Source of the DNA: Candidatus Iainarchaeum sp.
GTDB lineage: Archaea; Iainarchaeota; Iainarchaeia; Iainarchaeales; DTGL01
Reading direction: 5' to 3'
Assembly (NCBI GenBank): GCA_026413945.1
Contig: JAOAJX010000001.1
Coordinates: 1-64,000, forward strand
DNA length: 64,000 bases
The translations under genes and the position numbers were made by a program. Shown one piece after another: positions 10,821-56,072 of the stretch; position 1 is the first letter of the stretch; every line of letters starts with the position of its first letter. The notes beneath the pieces were generated by a model, which did no database searches, was not told the DNA's origin, and was given only the letters and a program-made list of their open reading frames with translations.

Positions 10821-11195
10821 TTAAATACCTGCTTGATCAACACGCACCGTGCAACCATCACATAACTCTAAATCATTTAGAATATTCTCTTTTGCAGTTA
10901 GATTGTTTTCGAGTTGGGTTCCAATACGACTTCCGCCAACGCTTATGTGAACCTCGCCATTTCTATCTTTCCATTCTCCCGCATAATATATGCTCTCAAC
11001 GAAATAGAAATTAGATTGCCTGCTAAACTCCTTTAAGGTTTCGCTTCGCATAATTGCAAATGTGCTAGTACTGGCCGAAATTGCTGGAAGCTTTGAGAGT
11101 GTTGAAATAGAAATGGTTATTACGACAGCAACAATTATTATAATCTCAAATGATGATTGGGCTTTTTTTTCATTATAAGTTAGTCCTTTGCTCAT
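10821..11195 (-). CDS. Class III pilin-like protein (124 aa)
   Basis: The N-terminus NEKKAQSSFEIIIIVAVVIT has the basic, KKAQSSFE and hydrophobic order of a class III prepilin signal, with cleavage expected after Ala. A short globular part of about 80 residues follows, with a CDGC pair near the C-terminus that could form a disulfide or bind metal. It is the last gene of the type IV pilus cluster. Its ATG follows the stop of the preceding pilin gene without a gap, which indicates co-expression. It is probably a minor pilin. Confidence 0.75.
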   Translation of the reverse strand: MSKGLTYNEKKAQSSFEIIIIVAVVITISISTLSKLPAISASTSTFAIMRSETLKEFSRQSNFYFVESIYYAGEWKDRNGEVHISVGGSRIGTQLENNLTAKENILNDLELCDGCTVRVDQAGI

Positions 11196-11819
11196 TTAAG
11201 GCCCACCTGGTGGCTGTGGTGGCTGCGCTTGCAGTGACACAGTGGATGTGAGTGTTGTTAAGTAATGTTTTGTTATTGAGACTTTTACTTTTTTAACATA
11301 GCTTCCTTCAATGCAATCTCCGCTTGCCCCATTACAAGAGCAATTTCCTGAAGAGCTGTCGCAAAGTTTAAAATTATCACATTCAATGCTTAACGAGGAT
11401 GACGCTGGGAAATGTAAAAGCTCACCACCCTCACAGCCTTGTTGGTATGATGCTTGGTTACAGCCAGAGCCAACTGTAACTGAACCTTCTTTTATCTCTG
11501 TAACCCTTGCACTTGACTGAAAAGGAACTCTGAAATATATTCTTTTGTTTGTTTCATCGCAATGCAGTGTTATATTGTCGTCCAAAAAAATCCAAACTGT
11601 TCTTTGGCTCTCACCGGTTGCTGATGCAACCTCACTTACAGCATTTGCGATCTGTTTTACAGCCAATCTTGCTTGACCAATCCTGTGTAAGCCTAATACG
11701 CTATTCTGCGTCTCGACGAATGCTGGATAAACAACACCGTGAATTATTACTAATATTATCAAAAAAAGGAAAAGAAATTCAATGGATGTCTGACCTTTTC
11801 CATTTAAATTAAAGACCAT
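11196..11819 (-). CDS. Class III pilin-like protein with Cys-rich region and Pro-rich tail
   Basis: The signal is LNGKGQTSIEFLFLFLIILV, a clear class III prepilin motif. The mature part, about 180 residues, contains a Cys-rich stretch (CDSSSGNCSCNGASGDC) likely to be disulfide-bonded outside the cell. It ends in the low-complexity tail QPPQPPGGP. The 5' end overlaps the prepilin peptidase gene by 16 bp, and the 3' end abuts the next pilin gene. It is larger than the micro-pilins of the locus, so it is a candidate tip or minor pilin. No closer family is recognised. Confidence 0.78.
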   Translation of the reverse strand: MVFNLNGKGQTSIEFLFLFLIILVIIHGVVYPAFVETQNSVLGLHRIGQARLAVKQIANAVSEVASATGESQRTVWIFLDDNITLHCDETNKRIYFRVPFQSSARVTEIKEGSVTVGSGCNQASYQQGCEGGELLHFPASSSLSIECDNFKLCDSSSGNCSCNGASGDCIEGSYVKKVKVSITKHYLTTLTSTVSLQAQPPQPPGGP

Positions 11820-12763
11820 ATAATGTCACCAAAAATATTCAGCAGAATATAGGCAAAAAGTATCGCGGGGACCATTGGAACAGACTCTTTAACAAGAATG
11901 CTGTCCTCGAGTTTGTTTTTAGATACTAGTTTTTTTAATTCATTTATCTCTTCGTCAGTAACGCCCCTGGCATTTAGTGGACTTACTATTTCTTTTTCAA
12001 CTTTAGCCATCTCAGTTTTCTTCATAGCCATATAATTGATAAGCATTCCTATATTAAAATGTTTTTCTCTCACTGCTTTACCGTTGACAAGCTTTATGGT
12101 TTCACCAACAATATCCCCTTCCTTTAATTCAGTTATCTTCTTTTCTTTTATAAGTAAAACCCTTGCCAAAGGCATACTCGCTATCAGAATTGCCGAAAAA
12201 ATGAATAGAAATATTGTTAATGCTGCGCCTGCGTCGAGACCAAGAAAAAAAGCAATAAGTGGCAAGATAATCGAAAGGGCAATTAAGGAAATTATCTTCT
12301 CCCTCATTCTTTTTTCAGCACACTTTAGCATTATTAATAGAGATATGGGGAACATTGAAAATATTGTAAAGATAAAAAGTTCAAAAGGAAAAAGAGGGAA
12401 AACTCTATAAGTTCTTTGCAAAAAATAAATGTCATTATTGGATATGAGTGCAAAAACGTTTGGATTAACTGGATTGAGCGCAGCAATAGCTGAGAAAAGC
12501 TTTACATCACCGCCAGCCCAAAATCCGAGCTTATATAGAATGTAACTAAAAAGAAAGGTGTATATAAGTGCAAAAACGGAGTAGAGAAAAGGCGTTGTGG
12601 TTTGCAGATACACTGAAAAAAAGATATGCAGTAGAAGACCTGAAAGTGCAAGCAAAAAGCAAAGCTTATTGCTCACAATCCTTTCTTTCAAATCAGTATA
12701 TGAAGCTATTAGAAGACCTGAAAAGGAAAAAATGAAAACTAATAATGGTAGATAAAATAACAT
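11804..12763 (-). CDS. Prepilin peptidase, A24 family (archaeal EppA/FlaK/PibD type)
   Basis: This is an integral-membrane aspartate protease that cleaves class III signal peptides. Both catalytic aspartates are visible: the first in IASYTDLKERIVSN (residue about 24) and the second in the GGDVKLFSA motif (about residue 85). Hydrophobic helices surround them. At 319 aa it is longer than the simplest archaeal enzymes; the extra part includes a soluble segment (about residues 200-290) before a last helix. It sits inside the pilus operon and could process every class III protein in the window. Confidence 0.88.
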   Translation of the reverse strand: MLFYLPLLVFIFSFSGLLIASYTDLKERIVSNKLCFLLALSGLLLHIFFSVYLQTTTPFLYSVFALIYTFLFSYILYKLGFWAGGDVKLFSAIAALNPVNPNVFALISNNDIYFLQRTYRVFPLFPFELFIFTIFSMFPISLLIMLKCAEKRMREKIISLIALSIILPLIAFFLGLDAGAALTIFLFIFSAILIASMPLARVLLIKEKKITELKEGDIVGETIKLVNGKAVREKHFNIGMLINYMAMKKTEMAKVEKEIVSPLNARGVTDEEINELKKLVSKNKLEDSILVKESVPMVPAILFAYILLNIFGDIIWSLI

Positions 12764-12847: not shown

Positions 12848-13018
12848 TTAGCGCATTAATGATTGCAGCAGTGAGCTTTGCATCTTTAGAACTTCGGTTC
12901 TGAGGTTGTCAGCAATGATTTCAATATAGACTACTAAAACTGTTCCTGCAACCACTAATGCAATTACAAAAGCAAGCAAAGTGAGATAATCAAATGAGAC
13001 CTGTGCTTTTTTATTCAT
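12848..13018 (-). CDS. Micro-pilin (56 aa), class III signal
   Basis: Too short for the ORF track; read directly. It starts MNKKAQVSFDYLTLLAFVIA. KKAQVSFD is a class III cleavage site followed by about 22 hydrophobic residues and a 22-residue amphipathic tail ending LLQSLMR. A strong GGAGGG precedes the ATG, which shares one base with the upstream stop (TGATG). With no globular domain the mature chain would be essentially one helix of about 50 residues, the size of Flp/Tad pilins. It is probably a paralogue of the next micro-pilin (13018-13188). Confidence 0.82.
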   Translation of the reverse strand: MNKKAQVSFDYLTLLAFVIALVVAGTVLVVYIEIIADNLRTEVLKMQSSLLQSLMR

Positions 13019-13188
13019 CAATTCCCTCCTTGAAGAAGTTTCCTTCTTATCTCTGATGTCTCTCGTTCCATATTAAGTGAGAGATTAATGAGATGGACTA
13101 CTATGGCTGATATGGCAAGGCCTAAAGAAAGAACAAAAGAAAGCATAATCAAATAATCGGTGGCTACTTGTGCCTTATTCTCCATCAT
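13018..13188 (-). CDS. Micro-pilin (56 aa), class III signal
   Basis: Too short for the ORF track; read directly. The sequence begins MMENKAQVATDYLIMLSFVL. NKAQVATD is the class III cleavage motif. A hydrophobic helix and a charged tail (NMERETSEIRRKLLQGGN) follow. The stop overlaps the ATG of the similar gene at 12848-13018 by one base, so they are translated together. The length equals its neighbour's, and both keep KAQV-x-x-DYL, which suggests duplication. The first or second Met could be the start. It is a likely structural or minor subunit of a Flp-like filament. Confidence 0.82.
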   Translation of the reverse strand: MMENKAQVATDYLIMLSFVLSLGLAISAIVVHLINLSLNMERETSEIRRKLLQGGN

Positions 13189-13214
13189 TTATCAGCCGGC
13201 ATGTAACCTTAACT

Positions 13215-13496
13215 TTAACTACAACTGCTGGGAACATCAACGGCAACGCATCTGTTGTTTTGCCAAGCGCAATCTTTAACGTTGTCATTGTCGAGATCTG
13301 GACCTAATGTGCTTCCTTGGCACAAGTTCTCATTTGGTTTCGCACTGCATGTGGCTTCAAAAATTGTCTTATCATTCTCGCACTGCTGTTTTCCTGCAGT
13401 TGGCAAAATAACTGTAATAACCAAAAGCACAACAACCATTGCTGCTCCTATTAGGATTAGGTATTCCAATGCACCTTGACCTTTCTCATATGCCAT
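13215..13496 (-). CDS. Small class III pilin with Cys-rich, Ca-loop-like tail (93 aa)
   Basis: The signal is EKGQGALEYLILIGAAMVVV. After the helix come about 58 residues with six cysteines (residues 39, 50, 59, 76, 83, 92), enough for three disulfides. They also include an acidic DLDNDNVKDC segment resembling a thrombospondin-type-3/dockerin-like calcium loop. GGAGGTAAG ahead of the ATG is a very good ribosome-binding site, consistent with high expression, so this may be the major pilin. It lies between micro-pilin genes in the pilus operon. The calcium and disulfide roles are inference. Confidence 0.85.
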   Translation of the reverse strand: MAYEKGQGALEYLILIGAAMVVVLLVITVILPTAGKQQCENDKTIFEATCSAKPNENLCQGSTLGPDLDNDNVKDCAWQNNRCVAVDVPSSCS

Positions 13497-13522
13497 TTTC
13501 TTACCTCCTTTTTATACAAACA

Positions 13523-13681
13523 TTAAGGTGTGGGTGTATGCTCAGCAGTCCTCTTTATCTCACCACCAACTGTTTTCGTGGTATTTTTAAGATAAATCCC
13601 AACAATTGTTGCTGTCATAACTGCTCCACCCAATATCAGCAAATACTCAAGAGATGTCTGTGCGCGCTTTTCCTTCAACAT
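13523..13681 (-). CDS. Micro-pilin (52 aa), class III signal
   Basis: Too short for the ORF track; read directly. MLKEKRAQTSLEYLLILGGA has the KRAQTSLE cleavage motif and hydrophobic helix of a class III prepilin. Only about 25 residues follow (KNTTKTVGGEIKRTAEHTPTP). GGGAGGTGA is an almost perfect ribosome-binding site before the ATG. It is the first pilin gene after the two TadB/TadC-like membrane proteins. Strong initiation signals and position make it, with the 93-aa protein, a candidate major subunit. Confidence 0.83.
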   Translation of the reverse strand: MLKEKRAQTSLEYLLILGGAVMTATIVGIYLKNTTKTVGGEIKRTAEHTPTP

Positions 13682-13686
13682 CCTAT

Positions 13687-14688
13687 TCACCTCCCAAAGA
13701 ATAATGATGTAAGCACAAATGACAAGTAATATATCAAATATGCAATAAATAAGAAGAATGGGATATATATAAAGCTTTTGCTGATAGTTCCATCTCTTAT
13801 CATCGCTACCATAAAGCTAGCAGCAGTTGCTTCAATTATAATATATGCGATTAGAAGAATCATAAGTGCATTGCTTACACATCCCCAGTAACCTTTGTAA
13901 TCAACACCCGTCGGGGTTATGAAGTGATTTGCATTACAAAAGAAACTGCTGTCTAAACTGCCAACTTGTGTAGGCATGGCACTTACCGCTTTTATTGTCT
14001 GCGTTAATAGGAAATTGACTATTGAAGTTATGAGCCCAAGAATTAATGGTGCTACAAGAACTCCAGCAACAACCATAAAAAGAACCTGCATCGTTGTGCT
14101 GCTTTTCCTTTCTCTTGTTATTCTGTGGGTTGCTCTTACATCATCGGCAATCTCATCCAGTATATCGGCCAAACTTGCGCCTGCTGATATTGAATCGAGT
14201 ATAATATCTACGGCCCTTTTTATAACCCTGCTATTAACATTGTATGCAAAGTTCTTTAGTGCATTTGATAGGTTCTCGCCTTCCTCCAGGCGCCTCAGTA
14301 CAAGTGCTATTTCATAAGTAAGAGGGCCATATTCAGCGGAGCTGACTGTACGTAAAGCATATTCAAATGTGCCTCCTGCTTTTAGCGTATCAGCCATTTG
14401 TCTGAAAGCATCAGGCAAGAACTCCTCCATTTTTGCTATTCTTCTTACTGACATAAGGTATGGGTAAGTTATCATTAGATCTATGACTGCGATGAAAAGC
14501 AAAAAGGATATTATTGCAGCATGTATTTTGCCTATTTTTATAACCTCAAACTCACCGAGTAAAAGCCAAGCCACAATACCTAAGCAAATAGAAAGAACTA
14601 TAGATATGATAAGCCACTTAGTTGGGCTGATAAAGAAATGTATCTCTCTTAGATATTCCTTATACGTTAACCAAGCATTTCTTATCAT
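13687..14688 (-). CDS. Type IV pilus/Tad inner-membrane platform protein (T2SF domain), TadC-like
   Basis: This is a membrane platform protein on which pilin assembly occurs. A T2SF domain is visible in the central soluble part (EEFLPDAFRQMADTLKAGGTFEYAL, then LRRLEEGENLSNALKNFA). It is flanked by paired hydrophobic helices at the N-terminus and several at the C-terminus. It has the single-T2SF-domain architecture of TadB/TadC and ArlJ-type proteins (333 aa). It directly follows a homologous gene (14697-15806), and such paired platform genes are characteristic of Tad systems. It lies 6 bp upstream of a micro-pilin gene. Confidence 0.85.
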   Translation of the reverse strand: MIRNAWLTYKEYLREIHFFISPTKWLIISIVLSICLGIVAWLLLGEFEVIKIGKIHAAIISFLLFIAVIDLMITYPYLMSVRRIAKMEEFLPDAFRQMADTLKAGGTFEYALRTVSSAEYGPLTYEIALVLRRLEEGENLSNALKNFAYNVNSRVIKRAVDIILDSISAGASLADILDEIADDVRATHRITRERKSSTTMQVLFMVVAGVLVAPLILGLITSIVNFLLTQTIKAVSAMPTQVGSLDSSFFCNANHFITPTGVDYKGYWGCVSNALMILLIAYIIIEATAASFMVAMIRDGTISKSFIYIPFFLFIAYLIYYLSFVLTSLFFGR

Positions 14689-14696
14689 ATCTCCAC

Positions 14697-15806
14697 CTAA
14701 GCGTGAGGTTGCATTGACCTTATAAGCGTGAAAACCATTATAAGCAATAGTGGCATCAACATAAGGTAAAATATTGCCAACATATCAATACCCAATGGTA
14801 GCATTGATAGTGTGAACTTTCCGCTAACAGCAGATATTGGAGAATTTCTTATTGCTCCAAGTATTGCTATGACAACTGGAAAAACTATTGCAAAGAATAT
14901 AAATAAAACACCGATGAAATTCATTTTTTGGCCAAATTCTTGCATGTTTGACCTTAGCTGAAAAGCTACATCTTCGGCAATTTCATTCATTACGTTTGAA
15001 AGGTTCCCACCGGTTTTTATGGCTCGTATAGTGTGCATCATTGCATTCTTAAGTGCAACAGATTTTGTGCGCAAGGCTAAGCGCCTTAATGCCTCTTGAG
15101 TATCCATTCCCTCTTCAATCTCGGTTATTGTCCTAGCAAATTCTTCGCTTAAGGGCCCGTAATCCGCTTTAGCGACAGCTTGCAGGGTTCTATAGAGCCC
15201 TATACCTGCGCTTAACTGTGTTGCTATGTGACGCAGGGCAAAAGGAAGCTCCATGCTTATTGCCTTTCCGCGTGATTTAGCACGAAACTTAGGAATCATT
15301 AATGTTATCACACCAGTAAAAAAAGAAAAAACAAAACTGAGTACAAGAACTAGTGGTATCATTGAAGTAGTAATTTTAAAAAGTGATAGAAAACCAAGGC
15401 CTGCAAAAAATACTGCAAAAAACATAAAAAATGACACAGCACTTGATATGATAAGCCACTGCCTTGCAGATAGTTTCATATTTGCAGAATATAGCTCGGC
15501 ATCAAGTGCTTGAGCAAAAGGCGAAATGGAAAATATTTTGGCCGCTAGGTCAAGGAAGCCTCGAAGTGGCCCAGTGTATGTTTTACCTACAAAGCTTAAA
15601 AACTTCGATTCGTGTTCTTTGAGGTCTTCTGGCCTTTGAACCTCAATGGTACTTACCTTGCCTTCAGTGATCAACGAAGTGAGCTCTGTTTTTTGGCCTG
15701 GCGTAACCTCAATGCCTTCTGAAGCATACTTTTTTTTCATTTTTTCAACTATTGCGTCAACTTTTTCCATATCGTGCAATTCTGGTTTATCTTTCTTTAT
15801 AGGCAT
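14697..15806 (-). CDS. Type IV pilus/Tad inner-membrane platform protein (T2SF domain), TadB-like
   Basis: This is the second single-T2SF-domain protein of the locus. The motif region reads SMELPFALRHIATQLSAGIGLYRTL, followed by ITEIEEGMDTQEALRRLA, with hydrophobic helices before and after. About 100 hydrophilic residues with KKKYASEGIEVTPGQ precede the first helix. Its start codon directly follows the ATPase stop (TGA-ATG), showing tight coupling. It is a probable paralogue and hetero-oligomer partner of the 13687-14688 protein. Confidence 0.85.
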   Translation of the reverse strand: MPIKKDKPELHDMEKVDAIVEKMKKKYASEGIEVTPGQKTELTSLITEGKVSTIEVQRPEDLKEHESKFLSFVGKTYTGPLRGFLDLAAKIFSISPFAQALDAELYSANMKLSARQWLIISSAVSFFMFFAVFFAGLGFLSLFKITTSMIPLVLVLSFVFSFFTGVITLMIPKFRAKSRGKAISMELPFALRHIATQLSAGIGLYRTLQAVAKADYGPLSEEFARTITEIEEGMDTQEALRRLALRTKSVALKNAMMHTIRAIKTGGNLSNVMNEIAEDVAFQLRSNMQEFGQKMNFIGVLFIFFAIVFPVVIAILGAIRNSPISAVSGKFTLSMLPLGIDMLAIFYLMLMPLLLIMVFTLIRSMQPHA

Positions 15807-17807
15807 TCAGCGACCACCCGAATCTTTTGACTCTAAGAAATCCTGCATTGATTTTGAAGTTTCTTTTATGCCTTTAATATTTTTCTTCACTAATAACTGC
15901 AAGAAATTTTTTCTTCGACTAATTTCTTTCTCTATCTGCTGCACGGTTATACCAGATAATCTACTAAGTTCTTTTAAATATTCGCAAGGTACTTCAGTTC
16001 TTATAATATCATCTTTAGCAGCATCCCATTGGAAGAGCGCTTCTGTTTGTGGTTTTCCTTCAAGTATGCCTGAAACCTCTGAAAGCTCAGTTACACGCCT
16101 TATAGTACCTTTTTTCTTATCGTGAAGCCTGTGCTCAATGATTATGAAATTAAGTCCTGAAAGCATTACTTGAGGAACACTCATCGGCGGGCTCGTTACC
16201 CTAATTATAGTTTCCTGTGATGAATTCGCATGAACTGTGCCCATCGAACCGTCGTGACCAGTATTCATTGCAGTGAAAAGCGTAAATGCTTCTTGGTGCC
16301 TTATCTCACCGACTATGATCCTGTCGGGCCTCATACGAAGTGAATTTTTTGTGAGTATGTCCATTGTGAGTTCTCCGCGACCCTCCAAGCCGGGAGGCCT
16401 TGCTTCAAATCGTATCCAATGTTCCATCGGAAGGTTTAATTCTGCAGTATCTTCTATTGAAATTATCCTTTCTGTTGGAGGAACAAATGAGGCAAGAACA
16501 TTAAGCAACGTTGTTTTTCCGCTTCCTGTGCCACCAGCAATCAATATGTTTGCTGGTCTGGTGCTTAAGCCTTCAACAGCAAGCCATAGGAACGCGGCAA
16601 GATCGTAACTAACTGTTTTGAAGTTCAACAAGTCAACTATTGTGAATGGATCTTCCCTAAACTTCCTTATAGTTAAAGTTGGTCCAGATAGTGAGGCAGG
16701 TGGTATTGTAGCATTAACCCTTGAGCCATCAGGCAATCTTGCATCTAGCAATGGATTTGAAAAGTCAACCCTCCTACCAACTTCCCTAGCTATTTTATTT
16801 ATAAGGTCTATAAGCTCACTTTCTGAGAAAAACTCTATGTTTGTTTTCATCATTTCGTAATCTCTATGAAAAACGTAAACTGGTTTTTTAACGCCTATTG
16901 CCATAATTTCTTCAAGCCGGTCATCTTTGAGAAGCTCATCAATTAGCCCATACCCAACCATTTCGCGCACAATAGCATCAGTATAAAAGTCAATCTTTCC
17001 CTTAGGGATATTTATTTCGGGTGATGACTCAATAATATCTCTAATTCTTTGCTTGTAGACAGCTCTTCTCTGCTCAGGATCCCTTATCTTGTATGGCTCA
17101 ATTGTAATCAGCCGTGTGGCTGCTTCCCTTATTATCCTTATAGTTCGCTTTTCGCTTTCGGTTGGCTTTGGTACAGGCACAAAGTAGTAAAGGTGCTTTT
17201 GCCCAGGGACTCTGTAAATCTTAACATTGCCATAGGCTTCTACTTCTATATTTTCAGCGCCGGCCATGTCTTTCTCCGCGGAAGTTAATTCTTCGGAGAA
17301 AGTATCGACGTCAGGAATTGACAATGAATCTGTAGGTTTCTTATCTGGTTTTGAAATTTCGGTGATCTTTTCTTTAGATATACCAGCACTGATTAATTTT
17401 TTCTCGAAGTCTTCTTCACCCGGCGGTATTTCAGCTGGGCTAAAATCAAGGTCTTGCTCATCAAAAATGCCTTTTGGTGGTGCTTCCTCTTTTTTTTCTT
17501 GCATTATTGTTTCTCTGAGGTGCTCCTTTATTTTACTTAAGTTTTCCTTCATCTGCGTTGTATCTTCTGTATTATAAGAGCCACTTGCGAACTCATCCAG
17601 AACATTACTCTTCTTTTTTGTTGTGGTGGTGCGTTGCGATGCTTTATTAACTTCTTCCCTCGGCACTTCTGATGAAGAGCCGAGCATATCATCAGTTGGA
17701 ATGTCAAAATCTTGCCTTTTGAGTTGACTCGCCCATTCGTCATCGGTGCTTTTTCCAGAATCTTTCTTGGCTTTTTCAATGAGGTCTTTCAGATAATTTG
17801 TGGGCAT
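15807..17807 (-). CDS. Type II/IV secretion ATPase (GspE/TadA/ArlI-like), pilus assembly motor
   Basis: This ATPase powers pilus assembly. The C-terminal two thirds carry the secretion-ATPase core: Walker A AGGTGSGKTT, Asp-box IISIEDTAEL, Walker B region MRPDRIIVGEIRHQEA and the His-box GHDGSMGTVHANS. The N-terminal 190 residues are charged and low complexity (Lys/Glu/Ser), probably a flexible linker. A TTTAAATA-type box lies about 37 bp upstream. It is the first gene of the cluster that continues with two platform proteins, pilins and the peptidase. A second, non-clustered ATPase occurs at 54445-56007. Confidence 0.93.
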   Translation of the reverse strand: MPTNYLKDLIEKAKKDSGKSTDDEWASQLKRQDFDIPTDDMLGSSSEVPREEVNKASQRTTTTKKKSNVLDEFASGSYNTEDTTQMKENLSKIKEHLRETIMQEKKEEAPPKGIFDEQDLDFSPAEIPPGEEDFEKKLISAGISKEKITEISKPDKKPTDSLSIPDVDTFSEELTSAEKDMAGAENIEVEAYGNVKIYRVPGQKHLYYFVPVPKPTESEKRTIRIIREAATRLITIEPYKIRDPEQRRAVYKQRIRDIIESSPEINIPKGKIDFYTDAIVREMVGYGLIDELLKDDRLEEIMAIGVKKPVYVFHRDYEMMKTNIEFFSESELIDLINKIAREVGRRVDFSNPLLDARLPDGSRVNATIPPASLSGPTLTIRKFREDPFTIVDLLNFKTVSYDLAAFLWLAVEGLSTRPANILIAGGTGSGKTTLLNVLASFVPPTERIISIEDTAELNLPMEHWIRFEARPPGLEGRGELTMDILTKNSLRMRPDRIIVGEIRHQEAFTLFTAMNTGHDGSMGTVHANSSQETIIRVTSPPMSVPQVMLSGLNFIIIEHRLHDKKKGTIRRVTELSEVSGILEGKPQTEALFQWDAAKDDIIRTEVPCEYLKELSRLSGITVQQIEKEISRRKNFLQLLVKKNIKGIKETSKSMQDFLESKDSGGR

Positions 17808-41745: not shown

Positions 41746-41753
41746 TTTAAATA
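41746..41753 (+). promoter_or_regulatory. TATA box of the second pilin-like cluster
   Basis: TTTAAATA is followed by 25 nt and then the ATG at 41779. At the usual archaeal box-to-start distance, transcription would begin at or within a base or two of the ATG, making a leaderless message. No ribosome-binding site is seen before this ATG, unlike the following genes in the cluster. Confidence 0.6.
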
Positions 41754-41778: not shown

Positions 41779-42207
41779 ATGTCTTTAAAAACAAAAAACA
41801 AAAACAGAAAAGGACAGCTTACAATAGATCTCCTTTTGGCCTTTCTATATCTCATAGTTTTAGTAGATGCTTTGCTTATTATAAATAACAATTATATTAA
41901 AAACCAAAATGAGGTGCTAATAAGACTCCAGGAGAGAAGGGTTGCATATATTATTGCAGAAATGCTTAACGCTAGTAACATACTTTCGGATGGTTCTACA
42001 GAGATAAAATTTAGTGTCCCTGGTATAAGGCATGTTAACAAAACAATGCCGATGCCATGTAATATTAGCATAGGAAATAATTACATAGAAGTGTCAACAG
42101 ATGTGAACGGGCAAACAATTGCTGAAAGAATTGAAATAATAAAACCTACAAATGTTGCAATAACTGGCAGCAAATGTAATAGTGAATTTACCATAAGATA
42201 TACTTGA
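41779..42207 (+). CDS. Class III pilin-like protein (142 aa), first of second cluster
   Basis: The N-terminus NRKGQLTIDLLLAFLYLIVLV is a class III signal: KGQLTID cleavage motif then a hydrophobic helix. About 115 residues of beta-rich soluble domain follow. The gene starts a four-gene overlapping set of membrane-anchored pilin-like proteins and has its own TATA box. No ATPase or platform gene is adjacent, so assembly would have to use distant machinery. It is a probable minor pilin or pseudopilin. Confidence 0.75.
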   Translation: MSLKTKNKNRKGQLTIDLLLAFLYLIVLVDALLIINNNYIKNQNEVLIRLQERRVAYIIAEMLNASNILSDGSTEIKFSVPGIRHVNKTMPMPCNISIGNNYIEVSTDVNGQTIAERIEIIKPTNVAITGSKCNSEFTIRYT

Positions 42208-42219
42208 TGAGGTGCATTG

Positions 42220-42768
42220 ATGAAAAAGCTTGGATATATTGCTAGTATCGATTTAATGCTTTCAACCATTTTATTGATGTTTGCGATTGGCTATGCTTAC
42301 AGGGTTGCTGAAGGAAACTTTTATTCACTCAAACAAGACGAGATTTATGAAGAGCTTAGGCTTTTTGGCAGCACTGCCGCTGAGCTGCTAATAAGCTCAC
42401 CAGAGACAACATGTAGATGTTCTGTCAGAACAGGAACAAACCCTGGAGATCCGCACTATGTAATGAATTGCATAGATACTTCAAAGCTAACAAACTTATC
42501 TTCAAATCCTGATGCTCTGAAAAGTGCTCTTAAGGTACCACCGTCTAGATTTGGGCTAAGGATAGAGATTTTTAAAAATAGAAATATTTTAGTTGGTAAT
42601 TACGGTGAGCCAATTCCAAATCCTGCGGAAGTAGCAAATATATACTCTGAGGGGAGAGCTGTAATAATAAATGCTGGTGATATCACAAAAGGCAAGCTAT
42701 TTGAATGTATATCTGGCAAAGAAATGTGTGAAAGACATGTTGCAAAAATAACAATCTGGAGGAAATGA
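42220..42768 (+). CDS. Pilin-like membrane-anchored protein (182 aa)
   Basis: The N-terminus MKKLGYIASIDLMLSTILLMFAIGYAYRV has a basic head, a small-residue/Asp motif (ASID) and a hydrophobic helix, like a divergent class III prepilin. The extracytoplasmic part has cysteines (TTCRCSVRT, NCID, ECISGKEMC). GAGGTG before the ATG supports the start. It lies 12 bp after the first gene of the cluster and 1 bp before the next. It is a likely minor pilin or pseudopilin. Confidence 0.65.
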   Translation: MKKLGYIASIDLMLSTILLMFAIGYAYRVAEGNFYSLKQDEIYEELRLFGSTAAELLISSPETTCRCSVRTGTNPGDPHYVMNCIDTSKLTNLSSNPDALKSALKVPPSRFGLRIEIFKNRNILVGNYGEPIPNPAEVANIYSEGRAVIINAGDITKGKLFECISGKEMCERHVAKITIWRK

Positions 42769-42769
42769 T

Positions 42770-43129
42770 ATGCGTCTTCCTACCCTTGGAAAATTTGAAT
42801 TTCGGATGAAGAAGCGTGGTTTTATATTTACACTCGATAGCATTGCCGCTGCTTGCATAATAACCCTTCTAGCAGTAACATGGTCAATCTCAGTTAAGTC
42901 AAAAGATAGTATGCCATATTTCACATATTTAGATAAAATAGCAATGGATGAGTCATTGGTAAACACATACACAGCAAATTTTGGTTATGATGACTTCACA
43001 CCAAATGACCAAAATGCAAACATAAGCTGCAAGAATTACTTTATTGTAAAAGAAAACAACAGACATAATGATAAGGATATCAATACTTATGTAAAATGTG
43101 TATATGATATTCTGGTGAGATTGCCATGA
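42770..43129 (+). CDS. Pilin-like membrane-anchored protein (119 aa)
   Basis: After a 12-residue lead the sequence reads MKKRGFIFTLDSIAAACIITLLAV, a basic head, a F-T-L-D motif and a hydrophobic helix: a divergent prepilin-like signal. The mature domain is about 75 residues with two cysteines. GGAGG seven bases before the ATG at 42770 supports that start, though the ATG at 42806 would give a more typical signal. Its stop overlaps the next start (ATGA). Confidence 0.6.
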   Translation: MRLPTLGKFEFRMKKRGFIFTLDSIAAACIITLLAVTWSISVKSKDSMPYFTYLDKIAMDESLVNTYTANFGYDDFTPNDQNANISCKNYFIVKENNRHNDKDINTYVKCVYDILVRLP

Positions 43130-43713
43130 ACTGGAGGGGTGCAATATACTCAACAATGACCGCAGCAATTGTTATGGTTACAATTGCGCTGGTTATGCAT
43201 TCAAACATATCTGCAATCAATCAGGAATATTATGCAAGTTGCACAAATAATATTTCTGATCTTAAGCGAATATGGCAAAACACAAGATTGGTATTAGACA
43301 AAATATCTGGAGAAGCTCTTGCTGATTATGTAAAAGACCAGAATATTGTTAATTCTTCTTGCGATGCATCACTCATATCTCAGCCAAGCGCTCAATCAAA
43401 AGTGGAAGAGTACATGACAAGTGCATTAAACAGAATGATGGGTAAAATCAAAGGTGAAGTTGGCTGCAGGATACAAAACTTAAATTATAATCCAGCTGCT
43501 GGTGGCACACCACAGGCAGCTTCTGTGTCAATATCATTTACCTTAATTTGTGAACAAGTAGTAAAGAAAGGCAGTAGCAATGAGAATGCTTTTTATGTAA
43601 GTTATTCTAAGAATGTTAATTTTGATAAAAGGGTGGAAACAAAAGGCTCTGACTGTATTGTTGTAGCCTATGATTCGCAATCAAATACTATAGATGCAAA
43701 CACTTGGTATTAA
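43126..43713 (+). CDS. Pilin-like membrane-anchored protein (195 aa), last of cluster
   Basis: A hydrophobic N-terminal helix (GAIYSTMTAAIVMVTIALVM) follows NWR, then a soluble, Ser/Asn-rich extracytoplasmic domain with cysteines (ASCTNN, SSCDAS, VGCRIQN, TLICEQV, SDCIVV). The canonical Glu/Asp motif of class III prepilins is not obvious, so it may be an anchored partner rather than a processed pilin. ATGA overlap ties it to the preceding gene. It converges with the asparagine-synthetase-like gene, overlapping it by 26 bp. Confidence 0.6.
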   Translation: MNWRGAIYSTMTAAIVMVTIALVMHSNISAINQEYYASCTNNISDLKRIWQNTRLVLDKISGEALADYVKDQNIVNSSCDASLISQPSAQSKVEEYMTSALNRMMGKIKGEVGCRIQNLNYNPAAGGTPQAASVSISFTLICEQVVKKGSSNENAFYVSYSKNVNFDKRVETKGSDCIVVAYDSQSNTIDANTWY

Positions 43714-53927: not shown

Positions 53928-54455
53928 ATGAGGGTTTTCATTGCAGTAAACATACCTGAGAATGTGAAAGAAGAGCTTTGGCAGAAATTCTCCGGAAAAC
54001 TTAGAAGAAAAGGAATTAAAGTTGTGGAGAGAGAAAACCTGCATATAACTTTGCTTTTTTTGGGAGAAGTACCAGAGAATTATGGAGAAATGATAAAAGC
54101 TAAACTTATGCCGTTGAGAGAGTTTGGAAAGTTTGAGTTATCATTTGGTGAGATCGGCTACTTTGAGCCAAGAGTGCTTTGGATTGGTTTTTCCTGTGGC
54201 GAAGAGAAGCTAAAGGCCTTACATAAAGAGATTTGCTATCTTTTAGGGCTTGTTGAAGAGCGCTTTTCAGCCCATCTTACAATTGCTAGAAATAAAAATC
54301 TAAATGCAAGAGATTTTTGGAACTTGGTTGAGGAGTGTAGAAAAGAAAGGATATGTGCCTCTTTTGTTGTTTCCAGCATAGATATTATGAAATCTACTTT
54401 AACAAAAGCAGGGCCGATTTATGAGAAGATAGGTGAAGTCAGGTTTAATGCTTGA
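53928..54455 (+). CDS. thpR: RNA 2',3'-cyclic phosphodiesterase ThpR (LigT)
   Basis: This 2H-phosphoesterase has both histidine motifs: HITLLFLGEV and HLTIARN. The N-terminus RVFIAVNIPENVKEEL is characteristic. It hydrolyses 2',3'-cyclic phosphates on RNA ends such as those left after tRNA intron cleavage. It is co-directional with taw3 (8 bp gap), and its 3' end overlaps the convergent secretion ATPase by 11 bp. The two intron-containing tRNAs in the window fit its presumed role. Confidence 0.94.
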   Translation: MRVFIAVNIPENVKEELWQKFSGKLRRKGIKVVERENLHITLLFLGEVPENYGEMIKAKLMPLREFGKFELSFGEIGYFEPRVLWIGFSCGEEKLKALHKEICYLLGLVEERFSAHLTIARNKNLNARDFWNLVEECRKERICASFVVSSIDIMKSTLTKAGPIYEKIGEVRFNA

Positions 54456-56007
54456 ATACTTTATCAAGTACTCCCTTTGGGTCTGTGTAGTATTGGTTTA
54501 TTATATCTTGAACTTCAGCCCATTTATTTATCTTATTTGCTAGCATCCATTCAAGAACATGTTGCCGTATTTCAACCTCTTGCATTATTTCGCTTTTAGT
54601 AAGACCAGTCGCTTCAGCAAACTTATCGAGCAATCTTGAAGGCACATCTGTTTTGTCAATAGTATCTTTGCGTTTATTCCATTCATATACATTGCTTAGT
54701 AATATTTTTTCTTCCATGTGCTCTATTTCCGCAACCTCACGAACACGCCTTATCAAACCATGTTGCTTTGTATAAACTTTAAACATAATAACGCTAATAT
54801 CAAGTAGAGGTATCATATTTAGTGGAACGTTCATTGGAGCTGACTTGAGTCGCAAAATCATTTCTCTTGCTGTATTAGAGTGCAGCGTGCCCAAAAGCCC
54901 TTTGTGACCAGTGTCCATAGCAACAAACATTGTTTGGGCTTCTTCGCCACGAACTTCACCAACAATTAGCCTATCTGGCCTCATACGAAGAGCATTTTTA
55001 AGCAAATCATCCATTGAGACTTCACCAAGGTTCATTATTTTGGGCCTTGATTCAAGTTGTATTATGTTCTCTCTCTCCCCAAGATCTAACTCAAGTGTGT
55101 CCTCTATGCATATTATGCGCTCCTCAGGTCTTATGAACGAACAAAGGGCATTAAGCAGTGTTGTTTTACCTGACCCTGCTCCACCACTTATTATCATATT
55201 TGCTGGGCTTAAGCGTATTCCCTCAACTGCTAACCATAAGAAAGCTGCAACTTCTGGACTAAGCGTTCTTTTTTCTATAAGCTCTATTATCGATATTGGA
55301 TTTTTATTGAATTTTCTTATTGTGAGTGTATAACCAAAAGGTGTGACACTTTTAAAAGTAGCATTCACTCTGGAGCCGCCTGGAAGTCGTGCATCCAAAA
55401 GCGGGTGCTCCTCATCGAAGGCCTTGCCAATTGTTCCAGCTATTCTGCTTATCAGCCTATACAAAGTTTGCTCTGTTTCAATTATAACATTTGTTTTGCA
55501 AGTGCCATACTTTTTATGGAATACAAAAACCGGCTTTCCTTTACCATTGATCATTATTTCCTCAAGGTTTTCATCTTCCATAAAAGGCTCGAGGAAACTG
55601 TAGCCAACGGAATCACCCAAAATTCTTGAGATTATTTCTTCTTTCTTTTCGATATCGGGAAAAAATTCGTTGAAGAGTTTTAACATTGCTTTTTGCAGCT
55701 CTTTATAAGTTTCATCAGAAGGCAGCTTGGTAAGCAGTTGGTTAACTTCTATTGTTTGCACAATTTCCCTGTTAAAGCGCTCTGCAAAATCTTCTGCGCT
55801 TTCTATTGGCATAACTGCACTTAGTTCCTCGATTGAATATGAGCGCTTGACTGCGCTGGACAAAAAATCGATAAAGCGTTGTTGCTCATTCGTGAACATA
55901 TTTGTCTTAACGGAATATAATTTGTAAGGAAACCCGTTGTAAATGGTCACCTGGCCGTATGACTCAATGAGTTCATCTTTGCTTGTAGAGGCCTTTTTTT
56001 CTTGCAT
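54445..56007 (-). CDS. Second type II/IV secretion ATPase, orphan
   Basis: The secretion-ATPase core is complete: LPGGSRVNATF, Walker A SGGAGSGKTT, IICIEDTLEL, Walker B region MRPDRLIVGEVRGEEAQ and GHKGLLGTLHSN. The N-terminal 130 residues are helical and differ from those of the 15807-17807 paralogue, lacking its charged linker. No platform or pilin gene lies beside it; it stands between thpR and cca. It may power the second pilin-like cluster, act as a retraction/regulatory motor, or belong to a system outside the window. The start is the ATG at 56007. Confidence 0.9.
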   Translation of the reverse strand: MQEKKASTSKDELIESYGQVTIYNGFPYKLYSVKTNMFTNEQQRFIDFLSSAVKRSYSIEELSAVMPIESAEDFAERFNREIVQTIEVNQLLTKLPSDETYKELQKAMLKLFNEFFPDIEKKEEIISRILGDSVGYSFLEPFMEDENLEEIMINGKGKPVFVFHKKYGTCKTNVIIETEQTLYRLISRIAGTIGKAFDEEHPLLDARLPGGSRVNATFKSVTPFGYTLTIRKFNKNPISIIELIEKRTLSPEVAAFLWLAVEGIRLSPANMIISGGAGSGKTTLLNALCSFIRPEERIICIEDTLELDLGERENIIQLESRPKIMNLGEVSMDDLLKNALRMRPDRLIVGEVRGEEAQTMFVAMDTGHKGLLGTLHSNTAREMILRLKSAPMNVPLNMIPLLDISVIMFKVYTKQHGLIRRVREVAEIEHMEEKILLSNVYEWNKRKDTIDKTDVPSRLLDKFAEATGLTKSEIMQEVEIRQHVLEWMLANKINKWAEVQDIINQYYTDPKGVLDKVFKH

Positions 56008-56072
56008 CACATCACTTTAAATTTCCAAATATAATTAAAAGGTTTTCAATATTAAAAGGTTACTGTGGTTGT

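Follow-up and report, generated by a model that had tools for sequence, protein, structure and literature searches.

According to a review, pilus assembly in bacteria begins at a complex of core minor pilins that is located at the tip and has a subunit devoid of Glu5 as its cap (PMC10191384). TadE and TadF of the Tad/T4c pili (TadEFG) and KilLMN of Myxococcus are tip sets encoded as small cassettes of two or three genes, sometimes in several paralogous copies (PMC12075869). Among archaea, EpdA-C of Methanococcus maripaludis and other arCOG minor pilins are class III prepilins. In the part of the Makarova et al. 2016 survey covered here, several archaeal minor pilins are given as essential for piliation, their genes lie in and outside the main locus, pilins are encoded away from ATPases, and one motor is proposed to serve several pilin sets (PMC4858521). 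The part covered of Makarova et al. 2019 describes DPANN pilus islands whose pilins are unrecognised by sequence and were detected only via their ATPase/TadC context and signal peptides (PMC6393860).

Here we analyse a stretch of 64,000 nucleotides from Candidatus Iainarchaeum sp. (the window) that carries a cassette of four genes, g1 to g4. Like PilHIJK and GspHIJK of the T4aP and T2SS, the cassette consists of four consecutive pilin-like genes, one of them for a member without the +5 acid, and it can be paired with an assembly ATPase and a prepilin peptidase. Unlike them, it has heads with conserved Cys and two TadC platform proteins, its g2 and g3 carry their acid at +6, and in the window it lies away from its machinery. 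A sequence search of the PDB with g1-g4 gave nothing above noise and a fold search with g2 and g4 gave no match, so we liken the cassette to HIJK in its working only and do not file it as a member. It resembles TadEFG and KilLMN as a small cassette with paralogous copies, but those are bacterial sets of two or three genes with no sequence link found to the cassette; in Pfam, g1-g4 match no Tad family, TadE/TadF included. With EpdA-C and the other arCOG minor pilins it shares class III prepilins, whereas a fixed four-gene order with an acid-free member is not described in the covered part of that survey, with which the comparison is by description. With the DPANN pilus islands it shares the lineage group and the recognition of pilins by context and signal peptides; this four-gene set and its separation from the machinery are not described in the covered part of that paper's text. 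A targeted literature search, in sources partly covered, yielded no description recognised as this cassette.

The cassette comprises four ORFs at 41779-43713 on the plus strand, with products of 142, 182, 119 (or 107) and 195 aa. Its elements are as follows (arrows mark the predicted cleavage site).

41746-41753, plus strand: TATA-like box TTTAAATA, 33 nt 5' of the g1 start codon, with no Shine-Dalgarno sequence 5' of g1
41779-42207, plus strand: g1, putative minor pilin; class III site RKG↓QLTID, acid at +5, two conserved Cys
42220-42768, plus strand: g2, putative minor pilin; site KLG↓YIASID, acid at +6, conserved Cys, C-terminal x-V-W-R strand
42770-43129, plus strand: g3, putative short minor pilin; site RG↓FIFTLD, acid at +6, two invariant Cys
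43126-43713, plus strand: g4, putative minor pilin and candidate tip cap; acid-free in mature residues 1-10, conserved Cys, ATGA overlap with g3

The original prediction, made from the sequence of the window, spoke of four overlapping genes. Their tight packing and coordinates are correct, but with spacings of +12, +1 and -4 nt a true overlap is found for the last pair only. For g2, the start at ATG 42220 is preferred over the listed TTG 42217 because GAGGTG lies upstream of the former. The g3 start at 42770, preceded by GGAGG, is favoured, with 42806 as a possible alternative. As had been predicted, each of the four products begins with a basic N-terminal head, followed by a single hydrophobic segment and a Cys-bearing remainder. 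The leaderless-type promoter proposed for the set has its equivalent elsewhere: counting the window, 21 genomes have a TATA-like box 27-34 nt before the g1 start codon, and in 20 of them it fits at least 7 of the 8 consensus positions. The mean consensus match is 7.5/8 before g1 versus 5.2/8 before g2, and a Shine-Dalgarno sequence is absent 5' of g1 in nearly all of the 21. Given this conserved box and the missing Shine-Dalgarno sequence, the sequence data give good support to a leaderless g1 transcript, predicted to begin at the ATG or close to it.

The source genome (0.95 Mb in 21 contigs), from a probably uncultivated archaeon that we place in Ca. Diapherotrites, is 92% complete. All seven genomes of its family have g4, and all seven have the four genes in order. 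A g2 profile search was positive in 72 of the 75 genomes of the order, the three misses being genomes of 61-83% completeness. Both the family and the order counts lie well beyond chance. The g1-g2-g3-g4 order is kept in many families of one Ca. Diapherotrites order and in a sister order; all four genes also occur in JAPLVS010000002.1 ('Candidatus Diapherotrites archaeon'). Across the order the cassette is flanked by genes for JAB, phosphoglycerate mutase and ABCE1, and often by an asparagine-synthase-like gene. In the gene-order comparison across the order, one locus (L110) is apparently without g3, and three (L113, L120, L123) were readable in part only. Outside the order but within the class, G085 has the arrangement OB-TctA-JAB-PGM-g1-g2-g3-g4, G077 has the four cassette genes, and G081 has g1- and g2-like genes about 1.5 kb before the pilus ATPase. 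A lack of synteny in relatives, which would have spoken against the set, is thus ruled out by an ordered g1-g4 that recurs in the family and across the order. A limited search of further DPANN phyla gave weak g2-like matches in 18 of the 106 genomes from the phylum to which an Aenigmatarchaeota record belongs; a part of these matches lie within similar gene sets. Two loci of that phylum (L255 and L257) have similar g1-g2-(g3)-(g4) runs, and these suggest a wider distribution of the cassette within DPANN.

The window also contains a complete type IV pilus locus and, directly upstream of g1, a group of genes that link the two in relatives.

15807-17807, minus strand: type IV pilus assembly ATPase (T2SSE), presumed partner from family match and synteny
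13687-15806, minus strand: two TadC/T2SSF platform proteins (14697-15806 and 13687-14688), presumed partners
12848-13690, minus strand: four small pilins with acid at +5, presumed partners, probably including the major pilin
11804-12763, minus strand: prepilin peptidase (Peptidase_A24), presumed partner
10821-11819, minus strand: two more pilins of the pilus locus (207 and 124 aa), acid at +5, conserved in loci L165-L169
38320-41744, plus strand: linker genes (OB-fold, TctA-like, JAB/MPN, phosphoglycerate mutase), named mostly by sequence resemblance

The cassette had been taken for an orphan operon without assembly genes. It is true that no ATPase, platform or peptidase gene adjoins it in the window. 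However, three relatives (G019, G025 and G035; loci L165, L166 and L168) have a single one-strand block that reads ATPase-TadC-TadC-pilins-peptidase-two pilins-OB-TctA-JAB-PGM-[g1-g4], and three others (G064, G074 and G055; loci L163, L164 and L167) follow the same plan with small differences, a few genes being inserted in G025 and G055. The linker genes, presumably no components of the pilus itself, connect the pilus locus to g1-g4 in these relatives, and the contiguous one-strand block recurs in several families. The co-occurrence with an ATPase that had been put forward as a check is found for the ATPase of the pilus locus: it shares a contig with g2 in 13 of 20 near-complete genomes, within 30 kb in 12 of these 13 and on the same strand in 10, the 13 genomes being related to each other and hence not independent events. 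In one single-contig genome (G013) the cassette lies about 110 kb from the pilus ATPase. In the window, the ATPase-to-pilins half of the ancestral block is inverted and some 24 kb away from the cassette. Since relatives keep the cassette just downstream of a complete pilus locus, gene order indicates that g1-g4 seem orphan only through a rearrangement that displaced them from the pilus genes, and the idea of an orphan set was dropped once the ancestral one-strand layout was seen. In G010, G012, G019, G035 and G057 the open frame that includes the pilus ATPase is 1041-1572 aa long, and the T2SSE match within it splits or stops early; an intein or another insertion could account for these oversized frames.

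All four products carry predicted class III prepilin signals, with a basic leader, a putative cleavage site and a hydrophobic mature N terminus. The prepilin site is fitted by g1 in 21 of 21 aligned rows, by g2 in 23 of 24 and by g3 in 22 of 22. Every g1 row (21/21) combines Gln at +1 with an acid at +5, whereas the acid stands at +6 in every g3 row (22/22) and in 23/24 g2 rows, where the single exception has a mis-set start. The earlier statement that g1 alone has a textbook motif holds for the window copies. Among g2 orthologues, however, 22 of 24 rows have [GA]-Q at the site, and the non-textbook KLG↓YIASID is, judging from this alignment, a quirk of this genome. In g4 the KG/KA site and the hydrophobic stretch are retained and the acid is missing; all 23 aligned rows are without one at residues 1-10. 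This loss is specific to g4 and no general trend, since all pilins of the 10.8-13.7 kb locus carry an acid at +5. A Glu5-less pilin at the tip is the hallmark of the priming complex HIJK in bacteria.

AlphaFold2 models were obtained for g4 and g2, with alignments of 23 and 24 sequences, respectively. The g2 model (pLDDT 92.6, about 93) has a helix at residues 4-59 followed by a beta-rich head; the g4 model (pLDDT 91) has a helix at 3-76, short helices and a C-terminal beta sheet. This predicted architecture of a long N-terminal helix and a beta-rich head agrees with pilins. Neither model has a Foldseek match at E ≤1e-3 to any solved structure, solved pilins included. Some true pilins also lack a structural match to a solved pilin, so the missing match lowers the pilin claim and does not remove it. 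On the question whether the folds might be unrelated to pilins, the models thus answer for the gross architecture of g2 and g4, and the solved structures give no match. Searches of Pfam and NCBIfam with g1-g4 produced chance-level matches only. PF04021, the model of the class III signal, was not matched at E 0.01 by g1, g2, g4 and their relatives or, for g3, by the window copy; the pilins at 11-13.7 kb do match it. The absence of any Pfam pilin match, PF04021 included, and of a solved pilin resembling the g2 and g4 heads would be expected if g1-g4 were ordinary single-helix surface proteins anchored in the membrane. We regard this as highly improbable in view of the invariant prepilin-type signals, the long helix that in the g2 and g4 models extends from the membrane segment to the beta-rich heads, and the profile matches, both with pilins and with a paralogous set next to ATPase-TadC.

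This paralogous set is found on another contig of the same genome (C15, locus L148), where four genes with the same four signal types directly precede ATPase-TadC-TadC. Comparable sets occur in other genomes (L154-L158), near an ATPase in L154-L157. When profiles of the cassette and of the paralogous set were compared, the pairs g2-g2 (E 1e-15), g3-g3 (1e-10), g1-g1 (1e-8) and g4-g4 (1e-6) were obtained, the g1-g1 pairing being unspecific in that the g1 profile also matches g2 and the 207-aa pilin. With heads only, g2 was matched at E 2e-6 and g1, g3 and g4 not significantly. As only the g2 heads match significantly, homology to the paralogue over the full length is shown for g2; the pairings of g1, g3 and g4 are based chiefly on their N-terminal part, together with the gene order. 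Contig C15 bears a further run of four pilin-like genes (L148 12773-14473, minus strand), with an acid-free member NGFFSAILLIVF and two g3-like members (GMLFALD, GYIFTMD), which is possibly another minor-pilin set. In the paralogous sets of L153, L157, L158 and L162 the g3 position is taken by a giant gene, whose product of 953-1308 aa may be a fused tip adhesin. At L155 5929-7512 (minus strand), a probable lipoprotein of 527 aa with 45 Cys is encoded between a minor-pilin set and its ATPase.

The source genome has seven T2SSE ATPase matches and several TadC-bearing loci (contigs C11, C15 and C18 of G000), a pilus repertoire that is large for a reduced archaeon. With so many ATPases and TadC pairs at hand, and with a predicted promoter of its own, the cassette could make up a distinct short pseudopilus or secretion device powered by a different motor; a separate secretion device had also been considered in the original prediction. 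One such motor would be the lone T2SSE-type ATPase at 54445-56010 (minus strand); most relatives keep it at a distance of about 7-20 kb from the cassette. However, this ATPase sits between the genes for TYW3 and the CCA-adding enzyme without a neighbouring platform protein, synteny joins the cassette to the full pilus locus, and no cargo gene was recognised near the cassette. The cassette being merely displaced, and its paralogue adjoining ATPase-TadC-TadC in the same genome, a separate device is clearly unlikely.

We therefore favour, with a probability of about 0.68, a reading of g1-g4 as the conserved minor-pilin cassette that belongs to the type IV pilus locus at 10.8-17.8 kb, where the four proteins would prime pilus assembly and stay at the tip. 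The tip-priming role is proposed because there are four fixed partners, one of them acid-free, tied to an assembly ATPase and a prepilin peptidase. The four prepilins would be inserted into the membrane via their N-terminal helix and cleaved by the prepilin peptidase of the pilus (11804-12763). The processed g1-g4 would then associate into a small priming complex, which would remain at the pilus tip, with g4 as the outermost subunit, lacking an acid for bonding to a subunit ahead. The ATPase and the two TadC proteins would insert the small major pilin below this complex. Processing, complex formation, tip position and the choice of this ATPase are inferred; as a counterpoint, another of the seven T2SSE ATPases could drive the cassette.

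The four proteins could also be minor pilins of the same pilus placed along the shaft or at the base, tuning its stability or anchoring without priming at the tip. In the part of the survey covered, Makarova et al. drew on minor archaellins as an analogy and located the minor pilins of archaea close to the base (PMC4858521); archaeal tip complexes are little characterised. However, near-universal presence in the order, a fixed gene order and an acid-free subunit are the pattern of a core tip set rather than of an accessory one, and we consider a shaft or base location rather unlikely. The tip complex for the 11-17 kb pilus, as first suggested, is probably the correct assignment in view of the common gene block in relatives and of a g4 that is invariably acid-free. 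The likeness to a minor-pilin or pseudopilin set with HIJK-type logic is likewise borne out by the four ordered genes and the acid-free g4.

On a broader scale, it is conceivable, though we propose it only tentatively, that the cassette is the DPANN counterpart of the bacterial HIJK complex, with four fixed subunits (acid at +5, +6, +6 and none) and several paralogous copies. These copies might equip different pili with tips of their own, in some cases through giant fusions at the g3 position. DPANN archaea are considered dependent on cell-cell contact and, to our knowledge, how archaeal pili start and what their tips are made of is poorly known. With its conserved signature, the four-gene cassette supplies named candidates for tip proteins in genomes whose pilins mostly go unannotated. 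It also permits a direct test in archaea of the bacterial rule that minor pilins prime assembly from the tip under a Glu5-less cap.
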